Source of the DNA: Sinohyriopsis cumingii
Taxonomy: Eukaryota; Mollusca; Bivalvia; Unionida; Unionidae
Assembly: GCA_028554795.2 (NCBI GenBank)
Contig: JAPYKE020000564.1
Span: 196,501-260,500 of the forward strand
Direction: 5' to 3'
DNA length: 64,000 nucleotides
Part shown: in pieces, positions 2,268 through 60,895 of the stretch
Layout: each line of letters begins with the position of its first letter
How positions within the stretch are numbered: position 1 is the stretch's first letter
Translations under genes and position numbers: made by a program
Notes under the pieces: generated by a model
What the model was told of the DNA's origin: nothing
The model's input: the letters and a program-made list of their open reading frames with translations, nothing else
The model's database searches: none

Positions 2268-3264
2268 ATCGGGTCGTAAGAAAGTTTACTCTCAGTTGCG
2301 TTTTGTGCCTTTGTCAATTAACTGATCGAATATATATTAACCGTAGTGCATTAGTTCAGCTTATAAGCTTACACTTTAACTAAGTTTCATAATATTTTCA
2401 ATGCATACTATTACATTCACTCTGCATTCCTGAAAATTTAAACTGAAAATACAATTCATTTTATAGCAGCTGTTATATGACTTGAAAGACTCATTACATA
2501 ATTAACCAAGTTTAGCTCTTATGTTCCTGCAATGAAAATCGGTGCAAAACCTCACATTTTCAACCGTCATAGGTGCCCATGGAGTTCATGGCTGTGTTTG
2601 CTCGAAAGGTCTGTTTTTTAACGTCCTTCCTTTGCATTACTTTAAGCCCATAGTTCTTGCCCTAATTCATAAGTTGATTGTTTTCTACGTAAAATGCGCT
2701 GCGTTTCCTTCTAAAGCTTAACTCATCTCAATCTTTATCTTTTAAAGTCACATGATATTTTTCACTCTCAATACGTAATAATATTCACTGTGATCCATGA
2801 TTGAAGCAATAAATGCATGGAAAACATACCCATTTAATAGTTTACAACATTGTGATCTAACCAACGTCGGGTCAACATTGGTATTGAAATAAAACATGCT
2901 TGAAGTTATTAAAACACCCTTGAAGTTTTCATTGATGGTGCCAATGTAGACTATGCAGTCTTGCATTAACTTTCTGCAGTTTGATGTCTTTGATGATGGC
3001 GCTCATTATCTCCTTGTAAGAGCACATATGAAAATTTGAAAGTGATGGCATCGAATTTCTTGCAAAAGTAAGCGACATTGATAAGTAGGAGGATCTCAAC
3101 CAGAAATGTCAGTTAATGTATGTGGCTGAAAAAAGGCTAACATACGATTTGCATTTGCTACAATCAAGGAAAACACTCTGGATATACTATTGTTATCTAC
3201 AGCTGATTTAATATGTTCTGTTTAAGCAAGGCAAACATAAAGGTAATAATAACATCAGCGACTG

Positions 3265-4014
3265 GTGCCTATACATCTTCAACCGAGTCAGGATGGCTTA
3301 ATGGAAGCCTACATTAAAGAATGCCACAGTATAGCCAACAAGCCACTATGTGAGTACTTACCGGTATCAGAAGAAAGCATCTTGTCAATCTTGTCCACCA
3401 CGGCCAAATGTGCATACAATACTTTATTTATGCAGACGTGGATGCACTTAATGCGTCGGCTGAAGGGCCCGACAACAATCCAGTGGAAGTCAGCATGCAA
3501 ACAATTGCTATCCAAGTTCATTGTGGCAACTGCTATATAATTAACTACTGAAATGGAGTCTTTATTTGTTAGTGTTTAACCAGGACAGTAATACGATAGG
3601 AAACTTTATCAGGTACCTTGGAGGTTCAGCTAGAAGAGATCGGTGAGTTGCCGTCCATGACGCATGTAACTTCAGACTACTCATATACAGACGAGAAACA
3701 AAAGTGAAAGCTGTCATTCACAATTGTATTCACTACATTGTGCAGGATGAACACGAGCAAACTCTGCGGAAAATATCGGTGCGATCCAATACAACATAGA
3801 AAAGCATATAGTGTTTTCACTGGGATATTGGCCTTTTGTAGACAGGCTCTGTTCTAACAGCGGCATCAGCAAGATGGCTGCCAACCTAACCAAGGATACA
3901 TTTCTAGTCACATCATGGTGCAACATGTATAATATTTACTTCCATCTACCTCTACGAATACAAGAGCAGCTGAGAGCATTTCATATTTCCCAAATGAAGC
4001 TTTCTACAGCTTAG
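3265..4014 (+). pseudogene. Unidentified coding-like fragments
   Basis: Two open frames, 3265-3540 (91 residues) and 3811-4014 (67 residues), with protein-like composition (for example LMEAYIKECHSIANKPLCEY), separated by DNA with stops in all frames. They lie just upstream of, and on the same strand as, the Polinton polymerase relic at 4345-4570 and could be eroded parts of the same element. I could not match them to polymerase motifs, so function is left open. No promoter or splice context supports an active gene. Confidence 0.25.
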
Positions 4015-42696: not shown

Positions 42697-43086
42697 CCCT
42701 GGATTGTGGTATTCTATCTGTTCCGGTTCAATACCTATAACATTGATGATATAAATATTAATAATAATGCAAATCAGTAACTATTTCAATAATAAGCTCC
42801 ACTGTGAAAACAGTGTGCACCCATGGCAGTAAACTTATCAGCCATACAATTTAATATGCAAAAAATATTTATTTTTGGTTATAGATAAATTGTCCGTATC
42901 CTTATTCCCATATTTGCCTTTATATTGATGTTTTGATACAAATAAAATGGCACAAAATCTCAGGCTAGATAGGTGTACAAAAATATTTACTAAACAATGT
43001 TTTTCAGAAATGGCTAAAAATGTAATAGTTTTCGCTTTTTTTAATTTGATATAAGTGTGCTTTTCGTTGAAATCCTAGACAGGTGA

Positions 43087-43545: not shown

Positions 43546-43673
43546 CTGTAGGTTCTAAATATACACTCAAGTCGATACTATTGCTATGCAGTCCCTCATA
43601 TTCTCTTTCATCCACATCTCCTCTATGGGCAGTGTCACAAGAAATTCTGCTCATCCTTATATCTCGTTCAGAG
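43546..43673 (-). CDS. Candidate cytoplasmic exon of the Ig receptor
   Basis: 128-bp exon with acceptor ..tgatggcgattag and donor CTACAG|gtaact. The open frame reads SERDIRMSRISCDTAHRGDV then DEREYEGLHSNSIDLSVYLE PT. Acidic residues around tyrosines (EREYEGL, a YxxL motif; LSVYLEP) are typical of signalling tails of Ig-family receptors. This frame needs a phase-2 intron upstream and ends phase 1, but the TM exon at 44895 ends phase 1. Direct splicing would reach TAA after five codons, so either a small exon of 3n+1 bases is missing, another acceptor is used, or a short-tail isoform exists. Further cytoplasmic exons should lie to the left. Confidence 0.55.
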
Positions 43674-43837
43674 CTAATCGCCATCAAAAGAAATGGAAGC
43701 GGTTAATTTCAAATATAAATAGATGTACGATAATAATAGCCTATAACAGTATATAAATAATCTTTATCATAGGAAAATATAAACTCCAGCGACGTTTGGT
43801 ATTGACAATATTGACAAGGATATTTTTCCTGTAGGTT

Positions 43838-43963
43838 CGAAATCTACACTCAGTTCGATCCTATTACTATGCAGTTTCTCATATTCCCTTTCATCCACAT
43901 CTCGTATTTGAAAGAAACTGCGCTAACCCTTAAATCGCGTTCAGAGCAAATCGCCATCAAAGG
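43838..43963 (-). pseudogene. Decayed duplicate of the cytoplasmic exon
   Basis: The sequence matches 43546-43673 closely (gagatgtggatgaaagggaatatgag.. against gagatgtggatgaaagagaatatgag..). The acceptor AG has become TG, the donor GT is gone (ctacaggaaaaat) and small deletions break the frame. It is a non-functional tandem copy about 290 bp upstream of the intact exon; the flanks (..ggaaatggaagtggttgatttcaaatgtaaatagctgtacgaaaat) are duplicated too. Confidence 0.8.
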
Positions 43964-44251
43964 AAATGGAAGTGGTTGATTTCAAATGTAAATAGCTGTA
44001 CGAAAATAGTAAGCTATAACAGTATATAAATACTCCATATCGGAGGACTATATAAAACTACAGCAACGTTTGGTTTTGACAATACTGACAACGACATATT
44101 GACAGAAAAGAATATATTCAAATCATCTAATTGCTGATTATGTCCACATTTATTCACAAAATCATTTCTATGTTGTAGCTTGCAATCCGACTAATAATAT
44201 TACATGCATTCCTACTAGGTAGACAGGTATTTAAATATGAAGAAAAAAAAC

Positions 44252-44894: not shown

Positions 44895-45017
44895 CTTGTC
44901 CTGTAAGACGAAACTGTAAACTACCTCTTCTCCATATTATAAGTAACGTAATGGCAACCGAAAACGGAACAGTCAATGCCGCTCCAACACCAGCGAATAC
45001 TAGTTTCACCAAAATCT
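44895..45017 (-). CDS. Transmembrane exon of the Ig receptor
   Basis: 123-bp exon with acceptor gctactgacag and donor GGACAAG|gtgagtg, both good. It begins with two bases and ends with one base of split codons (phase 1 both sides), matching the stalk exons. It encodes ILVKLVFAGVGAALTVPFSV followed by AITLLIIWRRGSLQFRLTGQ: about 24 hydrophobic residues with the stop-transfer pair RR just after, as expected for a type I receptor. On splicing, the upstream stalk exon supplies the G that makes the first codon GAG. Confidence 0.85.
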
Positions 45018-46817
45018 CTGTCAGTAGCATACAAAACGTATCTTAGCAACATAGCATATCCTCTCACCAAAATTAATTTCTTCTATCTACCCAAAATTAA
45101 TTTTGAAAACAAATCAGCCAGTCTACTCACAAAACATGATAACAATTATTCAATAAATAAGCTCCCCTTTACCTAAAGACGTTTTGCATATGTATATAGA
45201 AAAGGAAAACGCATCATGATATCTGATGTAGAAAGCTGCTTCCGTTTGAGGTTAAAATGTTGGATTCTTAACGCGTACGACTGTGTAAAAATGAAATCAA
45301 TAACATGCAATTTCCATTCAATATTATATATGGGAGGTGATGCTTAAATTATGTTTCATTTCTTAAAATGATTAATTGCCGGACAATGGGAGCCTGCAAC
45401 ATAGGAAAAGTACGGTCATCTGACTCTCGGAAATCATACATATATATTCCGACAAGTTAATCGTGCAAAATAAGCTGAAAATATGTCACAAGATTCAGTT
45501 CAAAACGCGTAGTAAATAACAGCTTCAATTTCAGACTGCTTACTATACTAACACTCCTGGCCGTGACTGACTAACCCCTTACAAAATATCATGATACCCC
45601 CTGCAAAAGATCATGTGGGTTCCCATTCGCAGGACAATGCCTTCCAGATTCAATGTTTTCCATCAGGCATCTAAAGCATTAATTAATATTAGAGTTTGTG
45701 TTAGGAAATCTTCTGATATATTTGCTATTGGATTGAATTTCTTAATGTCCCATACTAAAGGAATGTCATGTCTGAGGGAGTAGCTTAACGAATTATTAGT
45801 AATTTCTTGTGTATCTATCTAGGTATCCACCTTTTATAATTTTATTTTCATTTTGAAACTTTGTTAATTTTGTTTTATTTCTCATAAGATAAATTGTTAT
45901 TATAACTTGAAGTCCAAGATAAATTGTTATTGATACTATTCTGACCAAGTGTTACTGTTTTCGAGGTGTACGCTACCATTACAGAAAACGCAGGATAACG
46001 TTAAAGTCATGGGAATAACATCTGAAAAAATAAATCATGTATACTGTACTCATTCAGTACAGTGAGTGTAAGAGAGGTAACTCTGTTTACATTGCTTGAC
46101 GTTTCTGTAGGAGGATACGGCAGTGATTATCATGCAAGCTATGTAAATTAACTATGCTGTATGTACTAAAGGAAATTATCGAATTTTTCCAAGTAATATG
46201 TAAAATAAAAATAAATACATTTTCCACCTCAGGCATCTGTATGGCTGAATCAAGCAATTAATGTTTGACTAAAACTAGCCAATTTTATTGTTTATAAAGA
46301 CTATGTGTGTTAATAATTCAGTAGCCAAATATGACTGGCTGTATTCAAAACAAACAATGTGCCAGGAACTTATTGATGTTTCATGTTCACTTTATCTCTA
46401 TTCATTTGGGATATTATATACGAAAAGTATCAATTAAGAAGTTAGGAAAGTTTAACATTTTTATTCAACAATTTATGACTGGGCATTGTACATTTCTCAA
46501 AATGGAGATTTAGATATCGAGTTGCTAAGGTTAATGATGATGCAGAGGATGAACATATATTTAAGAATAAAAGTGTCTATTAAAGATTACAACAATTCAA
46601 CCATTATAATAAAGTTATCAATGATCATGTGTGAAAAATATGCAATAAAGGTCTTCGCTATATTTTAATTCCATTACATTTTGGCCGTTTTGAGTTCTTT
46701 TCTGTATTTATATTTGTGTAATCATTTGTTTGAAGTGGTTATTTTATTTTATTTAAATGCTGACTTAGAAAAACAAATGTTCAAGACACTAATTTCCTCT
46801 ATAATGTCAATAGTTAC

Positions 46818-46895
46818 CAGTTTGATTTGCAGTTGACGTAGACGGTACAGTGACATACCCTTTTGTACTTTCCAGGTTTGATGTTCTGGTGCCTT
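46818..46895 (-). CDS. Stalk exon, copy 4 in transcript order (repeat unit 1)
   Basis: 78-bp exon with acceptor ttttattttcgcttag and donor CAAACTG|gtaacta; phase 1 on both sides. It encodes GTRTSNLESTKGYVTVPSTS then TANQT; with the base from the preceding exon the first codon is GAA. It is the copy nearest the TM exon and the most divergent: it has GT..YVTVP where the others have DT..YVRIP. It carries the NQT glycosylation site and many Ser/Thr residues suited to O-glycosylation. Confidence 0.78.
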
Positions 46896-47619
46896 CTAAG
46901 CGAAAATAAAATTAAAAAATTATACGGAAGGGGAAAAACGAATTCCTGAAAGATTCACTCTAACTAGGGTCATCAGCACATTTATCACGTCCAGAAAAGC
47001 GTTGAAATAAAACATTTTTTTTGTTGATCATACAAAGTTATCGTTCCCTTTTTCGTTTTGTTTGGTTATGTATTTTTCTACAGGTAACATCTCAGTTGTT
47101 GAAAGAAAAAAGAATCTTTAAAACAAATGTTAAAATAATTTAGTTTGCAAGAAAAAAAACTAAATGAGCTTTGCCTTTGATTTTTTTCATAGGATTATGA
47201 CCCTTACGTGATTCAGATTTGATTGCGTGTAATAATCAAGAAGTTAGGAAAGTTTAACATTTTTATTCAACAATTTATGACTGGGCATTGTACATTTCTC
47301 AAAATGGAGATTTAGATATCGAGTTGCCAGAGTTAATGATGATGCAGAGGATGGACATGTATTTAAGAATAAAAGTGTCTATTAAAGATTACAATAATTC
47401 AACCATTATAATAAAGTTATCAATGATCATGTGTGAAAAATATGCAATAAAGGTCTTCGTTGTATTTTAATTCCATTACATTTTGGCCGTTTTGAGTTCT
47501 TTTCTGTATTTATATTTGTGTAATCATTTGTTTGAAGTCGTTATTTTATTTTATTTAAATGCTGACTTAGAAAAACAAATGTTCAAGACACTAATTTCCT
47601 CTATAATATCAATAGTTAC

Positions 47620-47697
47620 CAGTTTGATTTGCAGTTGACGTAGACGGTATCCTGACATACCCTTTTGTACTTTCCAGGTTTGATGTTCTGGTGTCTT
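47620..47697 (-). CDS. Stalk exon, copy 3 in transcript order (repeat unit 2)
   Basis: The same 78-bp exon with identical splice sites (cgcttag / CAAACTG|gtaacta). It encodes DTRTSNLESTKGYVRIPSTS then TANQT after a junction Glu. Because it is phase 1-1 and 26 codons long, adding or removing it keeps the receptor frame. Confidence 0.78.
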
Positions 47698-48421
47698 CTA
47701 AGCGAAAATAAAATTAAAAAAATATACGGAAGGGGAAAAACGAATTCCTGAAAGATTCACTCTAACTAGGGTCATCAGCACATTTATCACGTCCAGAAAA
47801 GCGTTGAAATAAAACATTTTTTTTGTTGATCATACAAAGTTATCGTTCCCTTTTTCGTTTTGTTTGGTTATGTATTTTTCTACAGGTAACATCTCAGTTG
47901 TTGAAAGAAAAAAGAATCTTTAAAACAAATGTTAAAATAATTTAGTTTGCAAGAAAAAAAACTAAATGAGCTTTGCCTTTGATTTTTTTCATAGGATTAT
48001 GACCCTTACGTGATTCAGATTTGATTGCGTGTAATAATCAAGAAGTTAGGAAAGTTTAACATTTTTATTCAACAATTTATGACTGGGCATTGTACATTTC
48101 TCAAAATGGAGATTTAGATATCGAGTTGCCAGAGTTAATGATGATGCAGAGGATGGACATGTATTTAAGAATAAAAGTGTCTATTAAAGATTACAATAAT
48201 TCAACCATTATAATAAAGTTATCAATGATCATGTGTGAAAAATATGCAATAAAGGTCTTCGTTGTATTTTAATTCCATTACATTTTGGCCGTTTTGAGTT
48301 CTTTTCTGTATTTATATTTGTGTAATCATTTGTTTGAAGTCGTTATTTTATTTTATTTAAATGCTGACTTAGAAAAACAAATGTTCAAGACACTAATTTC
48401 CTCTATAATATCAATAGTTAC

Positions 48422-48499
48422 CAGTTTGATTTGCAGTTGACGTAGACGGTATCCTGACATACCCTTTTGTACTTTCCAGGTTTGATGTTCTGGTGTCTT
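48422..48499 (-). CDS. Stalk exon, copy 2 in transcript order (repeat unit 3)
   Basis: By eye this is base-for-base the same exon as 47620-47697, including both splice sites and surrounding intron. It adds another 26 Ser/Thr-rich residues with one N-glycosylation sequon (NQT). Confidence 0.78.
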
Positions 48500-49223
48500 C
48501 TAAGCGAAAATAAAATTAAAAAAATATACGGAAGGGGAAAAACGAATTCCTGAAAGATTCACTCTAACTAGGGTCATCAGCACATTTATCACGTCCAGAA
48601 AAGCGTTGAAATAAAACATTTTTTTTGTTGATCATACAAAGTTATCGTTCCCTTTTTCGTTTTGTTTGGTTATGTATTTTTCTACAGGTAACATCTCAGT
48701 TGTTGAAAGAAAAAAGAATCTTTAAAACAAATGTTAAAATAATTTAGTTTGCAAGAAAAAAAACTAAATGAGCTTTGCCTTTGATTTTTTTCATAGGATT
48801 ATGACCCTTACGTGATTCAGATTTGATTGCGTGTAATAATCAAGAAGTTAGGAAAGTTTAACATTTTTATTCAACAATTTATGACTGGGCATTGTACATT
48901 TCTCAAAATGGAGATTTAGATATCGAGTTGCCAGAGTTAATGATGATGCAGAGGATGGACATGTATTTAAGAATAAAAGTGTCTATTAAAGATTACAATA
49001 ATTCAACCATTATAATAAAGTTATCAATGATCATGTGTGAAAAATATGCAATAAAGGTCTTCGTTGTATTTTAATTCCATTACATTTTGGCCGTTTTGAG
49101 TTCTTTTCTGTATTTATATTTGTGTAATCATTTGTTTGAAGTCGTTATTTTATTTTATTTAAATGCTGACTTAGAAAAACAAATGTTCAAGACACTAATT
49201 TCCTCTATAATATCAATAGTTAC

Positions 49224-49301
49224 CAGTTTGATTTGCAGTTGACGTAGACGGTATCCTGACATACCCTTTTGTACTTTCCAGGTTTGATGTTCTGGTGTCT
49301 T
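49224..49301 (-). CDS. Stalk exon, copy 1 in transcript order (repeat unit 4)
   Basis: First stalk exon after the second Ig exon (donor at 50427). The same 26 residues as copies 2 and 3. The Ig2 exon ends with G after a CAA codon, and this exon starts AAGAC, giving Glu-Asp across the junction, so the frame continues without a stop. Confidence 0.78.
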
Positions 49302-49641
49302 CTAAGCGAAAATAAAATTAAAAAAATATACGGAAGGGGAAAAACGAATTCCTGAAAGATTCACTCTAACTAGGGTCATCAGCACATTTATCACGTCCAG
49401 AAAAGCGTTGAAATAACACATTTTTTTGTTGATCATACAAAGTTCTCGTTCCCTTTATCGTTTTGTTTGGTTATGTATTTTTCTACAGGTAACATCTCAG
49501 TTCTTGAAAAAAAAAGAATCTTTAGAACAAATGTTAAAATAAATTTAGTTTGCAAGAAAAAAAAATTAAATGAGCTTTGCCTTTGATTTTTTCATAGGAT
49601 TATGACCCTTACGTGATTCAGGTTTGACTGCTTGTAATAAT

Positions 49642-50426
49642 CGAGACAGTCCGTTTTTAACCTTTTCGTTGTAAAACGGGTGATGGTGGAAGTATTTGTA
49701 ATCGAACTGTTTGTGAGGTAAAGAAATGTTCCCCAACTCATCGCATATTTGCCAATCATGAGACAATTTAAAGAATAAAAGAGAATACTGCATATAGACT
49801 TGCTTATTATTGTACAAATTAAATAACATAGCACTTAGTATAGATAGAACACATCTGAAACGATCATACTTTATTCCAAATATCTTAATTAATACGTAGT
49901 CAAGTGTAAATCACATAAGGGACATAATCCTATGAAAAAGCCAAGGCAAAACTCATTCATTTTTTTCATACAAATTAGATTATTTCTCTCAATAGCTGAG
50001 TTATACCAATAGAAAAATACTTAACCAAACACAATGATAAAGGGACCAATATACGCGAACACAACATTAAAAGCTGATGCTATATGCTTATGAGCCGGAC
50101 ACTAATAAATTTAAAGACTGTACTAAAATATCTCAAATAGCTTCTTCCTCTGCGTGAGACTGATTTAATATCCTTCTTATCTCTTAGCTTTGAACAATAG
50201 AGTTTTTAATTATTTATTTATTTACATGTTTACTCACTGAATATCAAACACCGATCAAAAATTTAAAATACTATAATAATGTCGTGAATCTCTTATAATA
50301 ATTCACACTTTATACATTATACCACTATAATTGTCATGGCAAATGTATCAAATGATTTTGTACTATGTGATATTCTTCAAGCAAAGAGTTAATAAGTGTA
50401 TCATTTAATTTGCAAGACACATTTAC
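49642..50426 (-). other. Intron between Ig2 and stalk exons
   Basis: Two overlapping minus-strand frames at 49566-49834 straddle the right edge of the 802-bp array. One contains a Ser/Thr-rich run (NSSITNTSTITRFTTKR) resembling stalk sequence, but in the receptor phase the same bases read differently and the donor (AAAG|gttaaa) is weak. It is noted as a possible worn stalk exon, not called. Confidence 0.4.
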
Positions 50427-50726
50427 CTTGAATGTCGAGAACTATTGAATCCAAAAGAAATCCCTTATCATCCCAGGTAACATACGTGCCAATGTCTAAC
50501 CATGATACTTTTTGCAACGTTAAAGAAAAACTGTTTACATTCAATACACAGTTTTCTATTCGATCCGTATACAGATACTCTGAACAGTTTGCCTGTTTCA
50601 CGTCATAGATTGCAATAGGAAGATGTGTAGGATCGATCATCTCAATTTTAATTGAAGATATATTCGTTTTGTTACACATAAACTGAACAATCAACGATGC
50701 ACCGTCTTGTACACGTATCACCGTAC
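50427..50726 (-). CDS. Second immunoglobulin-like domain exon of the receptor
   Basis: 300-bp exon with acceptor ttttatgttgtag and donor CAAG|gtaaatg, phase 1 at both ends, the standard arrangement for one-exon Ig domains. It encodes VIRVQDGASLIVQFMCNKTN then ISSIKIEM, RIENCVLNVNSFSLTLQKVS and WLDIGTYVTWDD. LTLQKVSWLDIGTY is the E-F strand signature of V-set domains (L.I..V...D.G.Y), and FMC is a plausible B-strand Cys. The usual F-strand Cys (Y.C) is replaced (YVT), while extra Cys occur in QANC and ENC, suggesting an alternative disulphide. Sequons are NKT, NIS and NCS. A decayed paralogue lies at 60590-60895. Confidence 0.82.
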
Positions 50727-51968: not shown

Positions 51969-52289
51969 GTGGGACAATAATGCTTTTCCTCCCTTTCTCA
52001 ACAGAACCATCCAATGTAGAGACTGTATAATTTCCACTGTCCATAAAATTGACTTTTAATAAGAGAATACTGAGAATACCATTGTTCATTTCGATCACTG
52101 TTATACGGCCAGTGTAATTTCTGTTAACAGATATGCCCTCAGTGAGATTCTTCCTTGGATGATAGGCCATTACATTAGTGACATATAGCTTACTGGTGCA
52201 GCCAAAGAAGGTTATTTTTAAATTTTGTTTTCCATTCATTTGAAGTAAGGTCACATTTTCTCCCTTATCATATATCTCAGGTTTCCATT
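51969..52289 (-). CDS. First immunoglobulin-like domain exon of the receptor
   Basis: 321-bp exon with acceptor tgatgcttttttgcag and donor CCCAC|gtaagttg, phase 1 on both sides. It encodes WKPEIYDKGENVTLLQMNGK, LKITFFGCTSKLYVTNVMAY and, toward the end, MNNGILSILLLKVNFMDSGN then YTVSTLDG. LSILLLKVNFMDSGNYTV fits the E-F region of a V-set Ig fold (D.G.Y). Only one Cys is present and the F-strand Cys is Val, so the canonical disulphide is missing. Four N-glycosylation sequons are visible (NVT, NLT, NYT, NYT). The last base joins GT of the Ig2 exon to give Arg. The signal-peptide exon must lie to the right and was not found. Confidence 0.82.
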
Positions 52290-54402: not shown

Positions 54403-54743
54403 CGTCATTTGCTGCCTTTCACAATTGCGTCGGAGAATTCATAGTAAGGAAACTCAATAGTTATCATTGTCAATGTCGATGTCTTATTTTGTTTTATACC
54501 TTTACATTTGTTAAAACATATAGTGAAGTCTTATTCTCAGTTTATTACGAATTCCATAGTACTACATTGGAAACATTATACTACATCAGTTTATTGCTTA
54601 CCTTTTGTATCATATATTCCAAACAACATAAGAAAAAAGCATATCTTGATTAGAATAGCCAGGATTTTGCACCAAGATGTGGTTCTCCACATTTTAGCAA
54701 TAATTCAAAATCTCAAGAAACGGTATATTATGTTAGATTATAG

Positions 54744-60589: not shown

Positions 60590-60895
60590 GAATCGTATCC
60601 GAAAGGAGCCTATTGACTATACTTCATCATACAGGACCTTATCTAACCAAATTTTTACCAAGATAAACGGGACACTGTTTTCTTTCAATGCACAACTTTG
60701 TATTCGATCCATTTACAACTTCCCAAACTATTTACAGTCCCCTGGCGTTGCATCATGAATTGCAAGAAGAATATTTATTTTAGGTATATCAGCTGTCACC
60801 ACGTCAGTTTTAATCGAACATATGTTTCTTTTATTACACATGGTCGGTGGGACCTTCGTTCCTCTGTTTAGTTCAATTAATATTCGGCCATGAAA
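60590..60895 (-). pseudogene. Decayed paralogue of the second Ig exon
   Basis: Minus-strand reading gives GTKVPPTMCNKRNICSIKTD against GASLIVQFMCNKTNISSIKI in the exon at 50427-50726, then DRIQSCALKENSVPFILVKI against DRIENCVLNVNSFSLTLQKV. DNA matches too (ttcaatgcacaactttgtattcgatcc against ttcaatacacagttttctattcgatcc, plus strand). In-frame stops after GDCK and before MDRIQ, and loss of the D.G.Y region, show it is inactive. It lies on the same strand about 10 kb upstream, so the receptor locus has undergone local duplication. Confidence 0.76.

Follow-up and report, generated by a model that had tools for sequence, protein, structure and literature searches.

Putative stalk exons in a tandem array within a two-immunoglobulin-domain receptor gene of the unionid mussel Sinohyriopsis cumingii

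INTRODUCTION

What is the role of four nearly identical units of about 802 bp that lie in tandem in a single intron of a receptor-like gene, between the exons for the second immunoglobulin domain (Ig2) and the transmembrane (TM) segment, and how did they arise? The gene lies on the minus strand of a stretch of 64,000 nucleotides from the freshwater mussel Sinohyriopsis cumingii (assembly GCA_028554795.2, contig JAPYKE020000564.1, positions 196,501 to 260,500). This whole stretch is referred to here as the window, and all positions are those of the window. Based on its sequence, each unit very likely carries one real coding exon of 78 bp. As the original prediction had proposed, these segments would be the exons for a receptor stalk. 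Besides the stalk, the receptor would have two Ig domains, a TM segment, and a tail with tyrosine motifs. We consider it probable that the array was expanded by tandem duplication and unequal crossing-over and that the likely product of this type I receptor gene includes all four exons.

RESULTS

One intact minus-strand exon is present in each unit, as had been predicted, with the acceptor CGCTTAG and the donor CTG/GTAACT in all four copies. The exons have phase 1-1 and encode 26 residues each, of which 10 or 11 are Ser or Thr, with a single NQT sequon. The exons of units 2 to 4 encode EDTRTSNLESTKGYVRIPSTSTANQT and the exon of unit 1 encodes EGTRTSNLESTKGYVTVPSTSTANQT, the first residue being completed by a G of the preceding exon. 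Scored against a splice-site consensus, with the four copies included, the acceptor ranks at the 95th percentile of 239 intron AGs and the donor at the 97th percentile of 250 intron GTs. On its coding strand, the stalk exon contains 16.7% T. Among all overlapping stretches of 78 nt taken from the intron on either side of the array (45022-46432 and 49640-50400), not one has so little T. The predicted fit into the gene also held, with phase 1 both at the end of the Ig2 exon and at the start of the TM exon. Because the exons for the first Ig domain (Ig1), Ig2, the stalk, and the TM segment are all phase 1-1, stalk exons can be included or skipped in any number while the frame is kept. We discarded mutually exclusive splicing of the Dscam type as an explanation, since the exons of units 2 to 4 encode identical peptides and would add no sequence diversity.

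When the spliced gene model was compared with proteins, the sole match at an E value of 1 or less was P0001, a hypothetical protein of Sinanodonta woodiana (38% identity over 95% of the query, E 1.3e-52). Two profile searches, one of which was limited to scoring the 7994 candidates with the most shared words, yielded 30 distinct relatives, all of them named Sinanodonta woodiana or Potamilus streckersoni. Among the relatives found here, this two-Ig family is confined to unionid mussels. The closest relative by identity is P0005 (67%), which has one stalk segment of 26 residues. A peptide similar to the stalk exon also directly follows Ig2 in other relatives; the sequences are EGSSTSILETTKGHATIASTATTKQN in P0005 and DTKTSRLETTKGYTTLKST in P0023, both from Potamilus, and DTKRSSLETRKGYVTLLST in P0027 and EGSKFSSQEASNVYITLPSA in P0015, both from Sinanodonta. 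These four of the 30 were used as tblastn queries (E of 1 or less). The peptides of P0005, P0023, and P0027 matched all four exons with 52-67% identity (E 2.8e-6 to 8e-4), and that of P0015 matched only the exon of unit 1 (41%, E 0.002). Elsewhere in the window, the best match of the four had an E value of 0.053. P0015, P0023, and P0027 are only 43-57% identical to the window model in the best local alignments. The Ig2-TM intron contains 43 open phase 1-1 AG..GT segments of 60-99 nt, eight of which are the stalk exons (four exons, each with two possible acceptors three bases apart). Against the stalks of five relatives, the stalk exons scored 241-278, compared with 83 for the best of the other 35 segments. 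In the predicted structure of P0025, the stalk end has predicted local distance difference test (pLDDT) values of 32-35, which is consistent with a disordered stalk, although a shallow alignment can also cause low values.

The two Ig-like domains can be aligned over their length across the family, and the layout is a signal peptide followed by these two domains. In the fuller models, stalk, TM segment, and tail follow in the order seen in the window gene, and P0006, P0023, and P0027 run in frame into a hydrophobic TM-like segment, as read from their sequences. Stalk length varies. P0021 and P0024 pass nearly directly from Ig2 to the TM segment with almost no stalk, and P0023 (Potamilus streckersoni CHS0354_013436) has a long stalk at residues ~180-260 with a weak repeat of the Ig2 tail (10 of 20 residues) at a 60-residue spacing. 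The 760-residue protein P0015 (Sinanodonta woodiana ACJMK2_024929) contains a second region that matches the two-Ig model at 30% identity; one source names it a CUB domain-containing protein, and its precomputed Pfam column is empty. The published genome annotations of S. woodiana and P. streckersoni, from which the relatives' records may come, combine RNA sequencing with prediction (PMC12048480, PMC7937423), which does not by itself show transcription of individual models.

Ten open reading frames (ORFs) of the window, including both Ig exons, gave no Ig match in Pfam. The Ig1 and Ig2 exons matched no Pfam family at E 0.1, and the precomputed Pfam column is empty in all 30 relatives. When the two Ig domains were compared with PDB sequences, the only match was a weak one to Myotilin (E 0.4). 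A V-type Ig fold is nevertheless indicated by the predicted structure of a relative. Structure alignment (VIA-align) had good coverage only of model residues 132-237, so that the evidence for the fold of Ig1 comes from homology and from whole-model Foldseek matches, which are weak. The family thus consists of divergent Ig superfamily members, in which the Ig fold is present and a match to the Pfam Ig profile is absent. It was not found among the matches listed for the literature on Ig receptors of bivalves or mussels.

The four units together cover 46433-49639. That there are four of them agrees with the original prediction, which had given every unit 802 bp and the array an end at 49641; unit 4 has 801 bp and the array ends at 49639. 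Likewise, the units are uniform only in part. Units 2 and 3 are identical at 802 of 802 positions; compared with unit 2, unit 1 has 16 differences and unit 4 has 14. Unit 1 is 98.0% identical to unit 2, with its 16 substitutions confined to unit positions 3-488 (3.3%). The 14 differences of unit 4 (9 substitutions and 5 single-base indels) are confined to positions 579-795; its first 578 bp equal those of unit 2, and substitutions amount to 4.0% over the last 224 bp. Under independent random placement, such clustering by unit half has a probability of 3.5e-4 for unit 1 and 1.8e-8 for unit 4. With differences clustered in this way and hybrid units in the middle, the array bears the marks of the unequal crossing-over that had been predicted.

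The simplest reading of this clustering is that two old copies recombined and that the product was duplicated again. A single ancestral stalk exon of phase 1-1 would have been duplicated in tandem together with the intron sequence around it, and two old copies, a1a2 and b1b2, would have diverged by about 3-4% in substitutions. A crossover between unit positions 489 and 578 may then have given a b1a2 hybrid, whose later duplication would have produced the middle units, still identical to each other. Residue 16 of the unit 1 exon is T (GYVT), as in P0005, P0023, P0027, and P0015, and R in units 2 to 4. The R is therefore likely derived, and the unit 1 exon looks ancestral at this residue.

Just upstream of the array in transcript order, 49894-50051 is an inverted copy of the unit tail (unit positions 607-796) with 68% identity. 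This copy might have aided the initial duplication. It is the only other match to any part of the unit within the window at E 1e-3. An origin of the unit from a transposable element was also considered, and this sole inverted arm is too little to call one.

The features of the locus are listed in Table 1. The tail of the gene contains a 273-bp tandem duplication (43546-44091, minus strand) with one intact and one dead copy of the cytoplasmic exon C2. A dead paralogue lies upstream of the gene at 60629-60868 (minus strand); it is a decayed Ig2-like fragment of the two-Ig family, interrupted by two in-frame stops. An ORF at 3253-3540 (plus strand) weakly matches ATP_transf (PF09830) with an E value of 4e-4, below the Pfam cut-off. 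Rfam gave no match in the whole window at gathering thresholds.

Table 1. Features of the receptor gene and of the tandem array, in window positions
Feature	Position	Strand	Remarks
Signal-peptide exon	54602..54692	-	Ends in phase 1; opposite relatives' N-termini in alignment; hydrophobic stretch read directly
Ig domain 1 exon	51969..52289	-	Phase 1-1; matched by relatives in tblastn
Ig domain 2 exon	50427..50726	-	Phase 1-1; matched by relatives in tblastn
Stalk exon, 1st in transcript order	49224..49301	-	78 bp, phase 1-1; matched by relatives' stalk peptides
Stalk exon, 2nd in transcript order	48422..48499	-	78 bp, phase 1-1; matched by relatives' stalk peptides
Stalk exon, 3rd in transcript order	47620..47697	-	78 bp, phase 1-1; matched by relatives' stalk peptides
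Stalk exon, 4th in transcript order (unit 1)	46818..46895	-	78 bp, phase 1-1; three residues different; matched by relatives' stalk peptides
Transmembrane exon	44895..45017	-	Phase 1-1; hydrophobic stretch read directly
Possible short cytoplasmic exon C1	44343..44373	-	Acceptor scores poorly
C2a, decayed duplicate of C2b	43829..43903	-	GA instead of donor GT
Cytoplasmic exon C2b	43546..43622	-	Tyrosine motifs, DVDEREYEGLHSNSIDLSVYLEPT; exact acceptor uncertain; aligns with P0008 tail
Tentative next cytoplasmic exon	42698..42734	-	Read directly
Tandem unit 1, a1a2 type	46433..47234		Closest to TM exon
Tandem unit 2, b1a2 hybrid type	47235..48036
Tandem unit 3, b1a2 hybrid type	48037..48838
Tandem unit 4, b1b2 type	48839..49639		Closest to Ig2 exon; 801 bp

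DISCUSSION

The sequence lends good support both to the stalk exons and to unequal crossing-over. The gene would encode a type I receptor with a signal peptide, two Ig domains, a Ser/Thr-rich stalk, a TM segment, and a tail with tyrosine motifs. In the most likely product, all four exons would form a flexible stalk of 104 residues with 41 Ser/Thr and four N-glycosylation sequons. We infer that the locus is transcribed, that the four exons are included together, and that the stalk is glycosylated; copy number may be polymorphic at present, and stalk length might affect ligand reach.

Several results weigh against this interpretation. The stalk peptides of the relatives were chosen by eye, which favors the result, with the position right after Ig2 being fixed. 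With a one-base frame shift, P0005 resembles the intron just past the exon at 12 of 19 residues, compared with 13-14 of 25 for the exon itself, so that this pair indicates no constraint specific to the exon. Between units 1 and 2, the exon differs at 4 of 78 positions and the neighboring half-unit at 12 of 410 (Fisher p 0.30), and all four exon differences alter the protein. The stalk is thus conserved in kind across paralogues, yet nothing points to slow evolution; this is compatible with a linker and is no proof of one. Part of the crossover pattern could be mimicked by gene conversion. Furthermore, joining C1 to C2b gives a stop, and C1 must therefore be optional, terminal, or wrong. Six relatives (P0002, P0003, P0004, P0005, P0007, and P0025, of which P0007 is marked partial) end soon after the stalk without a TM segment. 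This makes a soluble product possible; these are either secreted forms or incomplete gene models. Finally, based on the best 20-residue self-match of each protein, none of the 30 relatives has a near-identical repeat of the stalk segment, with the limit that several models break off within the stalk or ahead of it and that automated annotation may miss repeated short exons.

The confidence that we give to the alternative explanations overlaps, and they are not mutually exclusive. The array may be a recent neutral tandem duplication, in which case transcripts would contain a single stalk exon or, through exon skipping, a small variable number, and the extra copies would have no function. The lack of a repeated stalk in the relatives' models is in line with this, as are the identity of units 2 and 3, which are therefore young, and the dead copy in the second exon duplication of the gene (C2a/C2b). 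However, acceptor, donor, and frame are intact in all four copies, even in unit 1 with its 16 changes, and identical splice sites give no reason for skipping particular copies. We therefore regard a neutral array as rather unlikely. Less likely still is an assembly artifact, in which haplotypes or reads were misjoined into extra units. False tandem copies in assemblies are often identical, as units 2 and 3 are across 802 bp, but unit 1 and unit 4 each have variants of their own, located in opposite halves. At least two copies are thus likely to be real, and an artifact would mainly concern the number of middle units.

It has also to be considered whether read-through of a stalk donor could give a secreted form ending in TGNY and a stop, which would turn the array into a choice between soluble and membrane-bound receptor. 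P0005 is annotated with an apparent read-through of this kind, and several relatives end after the stalk. Yet P0005 is the gene model of a hypothetical protein, the donors are intact in all four copies, and P0006, P0023, and P0027 continue in frame to the TM-like segment, which makes this explanation very improbable. That the 78-bp segments are chance open stretches in an intronic repeat, as the similarity of P0005 to the adjacent intron and the exon divergence no lower than that of the flank would allow, is extremely improbable, given the similar post-Ig2 peptides in the diverged P0015, P0023, and P0027 and the score gap between the stalk exons and all other segments.

If copy number varies between animals, the stalk-exon array would supply a natural series of variants of one receptor that differ in length while the ligand and membrane domains stay the same, and with it a direct test of the role of stalk length in an innate receptor. 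A polymorphic stalk could set reach or size-based exclusion at contacts.

Length-variable or exon-encoded spacers are familiar from immune receptors, such as the neck repeats of DC-SIGN, the stem exon of KIR, and the long homologous repeats of CR1. The mussel array differs from each of these: a single exon holds the DC-SIGN repeats, KIR has only one stem exon, and the CR1 repeats are folded domains. In coding variable number tandem repeats (VNTRs) such as LPA KIV-2 and DMBT1, splice sites lie inside the unit and protein length changes (PMC11201333). They resemble the mussel array in that coding units with splice sites within them are repeated in tandem. Their units measure about 5.1 and 4.1 kb, respectively, compared with ~802 bp in the mussel. 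Each LPA kringle folds as a domain and is split over two exons, whereas the mussel unit encodes stalk sequence that is probably disordered and does not alter the Ig domains.

The original prediction knew of no described example of this design, and this claim does not stand. In one study, human IGHG3 alleles carry two to five tandem hinge exons; 2, 3, 4, or 5 were found among 283 people, with 2 and 5 in single individuals, and hinge lengths of 32, 47, 62, and 77 amino acids correspond to 15 residues per step, with a repetitive element of ~200 bp (PMC8674132). Among the matches listed in open-access PMC full text, and judged from the listings, no receptor-stalk example was found, which is not proof of absence. 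In both IGHG3 and the mussel gene, a small exon that encodes a short flexible linker beside Ig domains is repeated whole and in tandem; in the mussel, this is a symmetric exon copied together with its intron, and the mode of change is likely the same. There are also clear differences. IGHG3 is a secreted vertebrate antibody with the hinge between CH1 and CH2, whereas the mussel gene has a 26-residue stalk unit before the TM segment in a bivalve. The repeated elements differ in size and have no known sequence relation, and copy-number polymorphism has been shown for IGHG3, whereas the mussel array was read from one haplotype. The layout could nevertheless let stalk length change by whole steps, as in the human IgG3 hinge, and variation in copy number would suggest an independent mollusc origin of the same solution. 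By this analogy, we tentatively put forward the idea of an invertebrate immune-type membrane receptor whose stalk is polymorphic in glycosylated steps of 26 residues through ongoing unequal crossing-over, convergent with the IgG3 hinge. The design itself is known, and the mussel locus is best regarded as a new example of it, from an invertebrate and in a membrane receptor.

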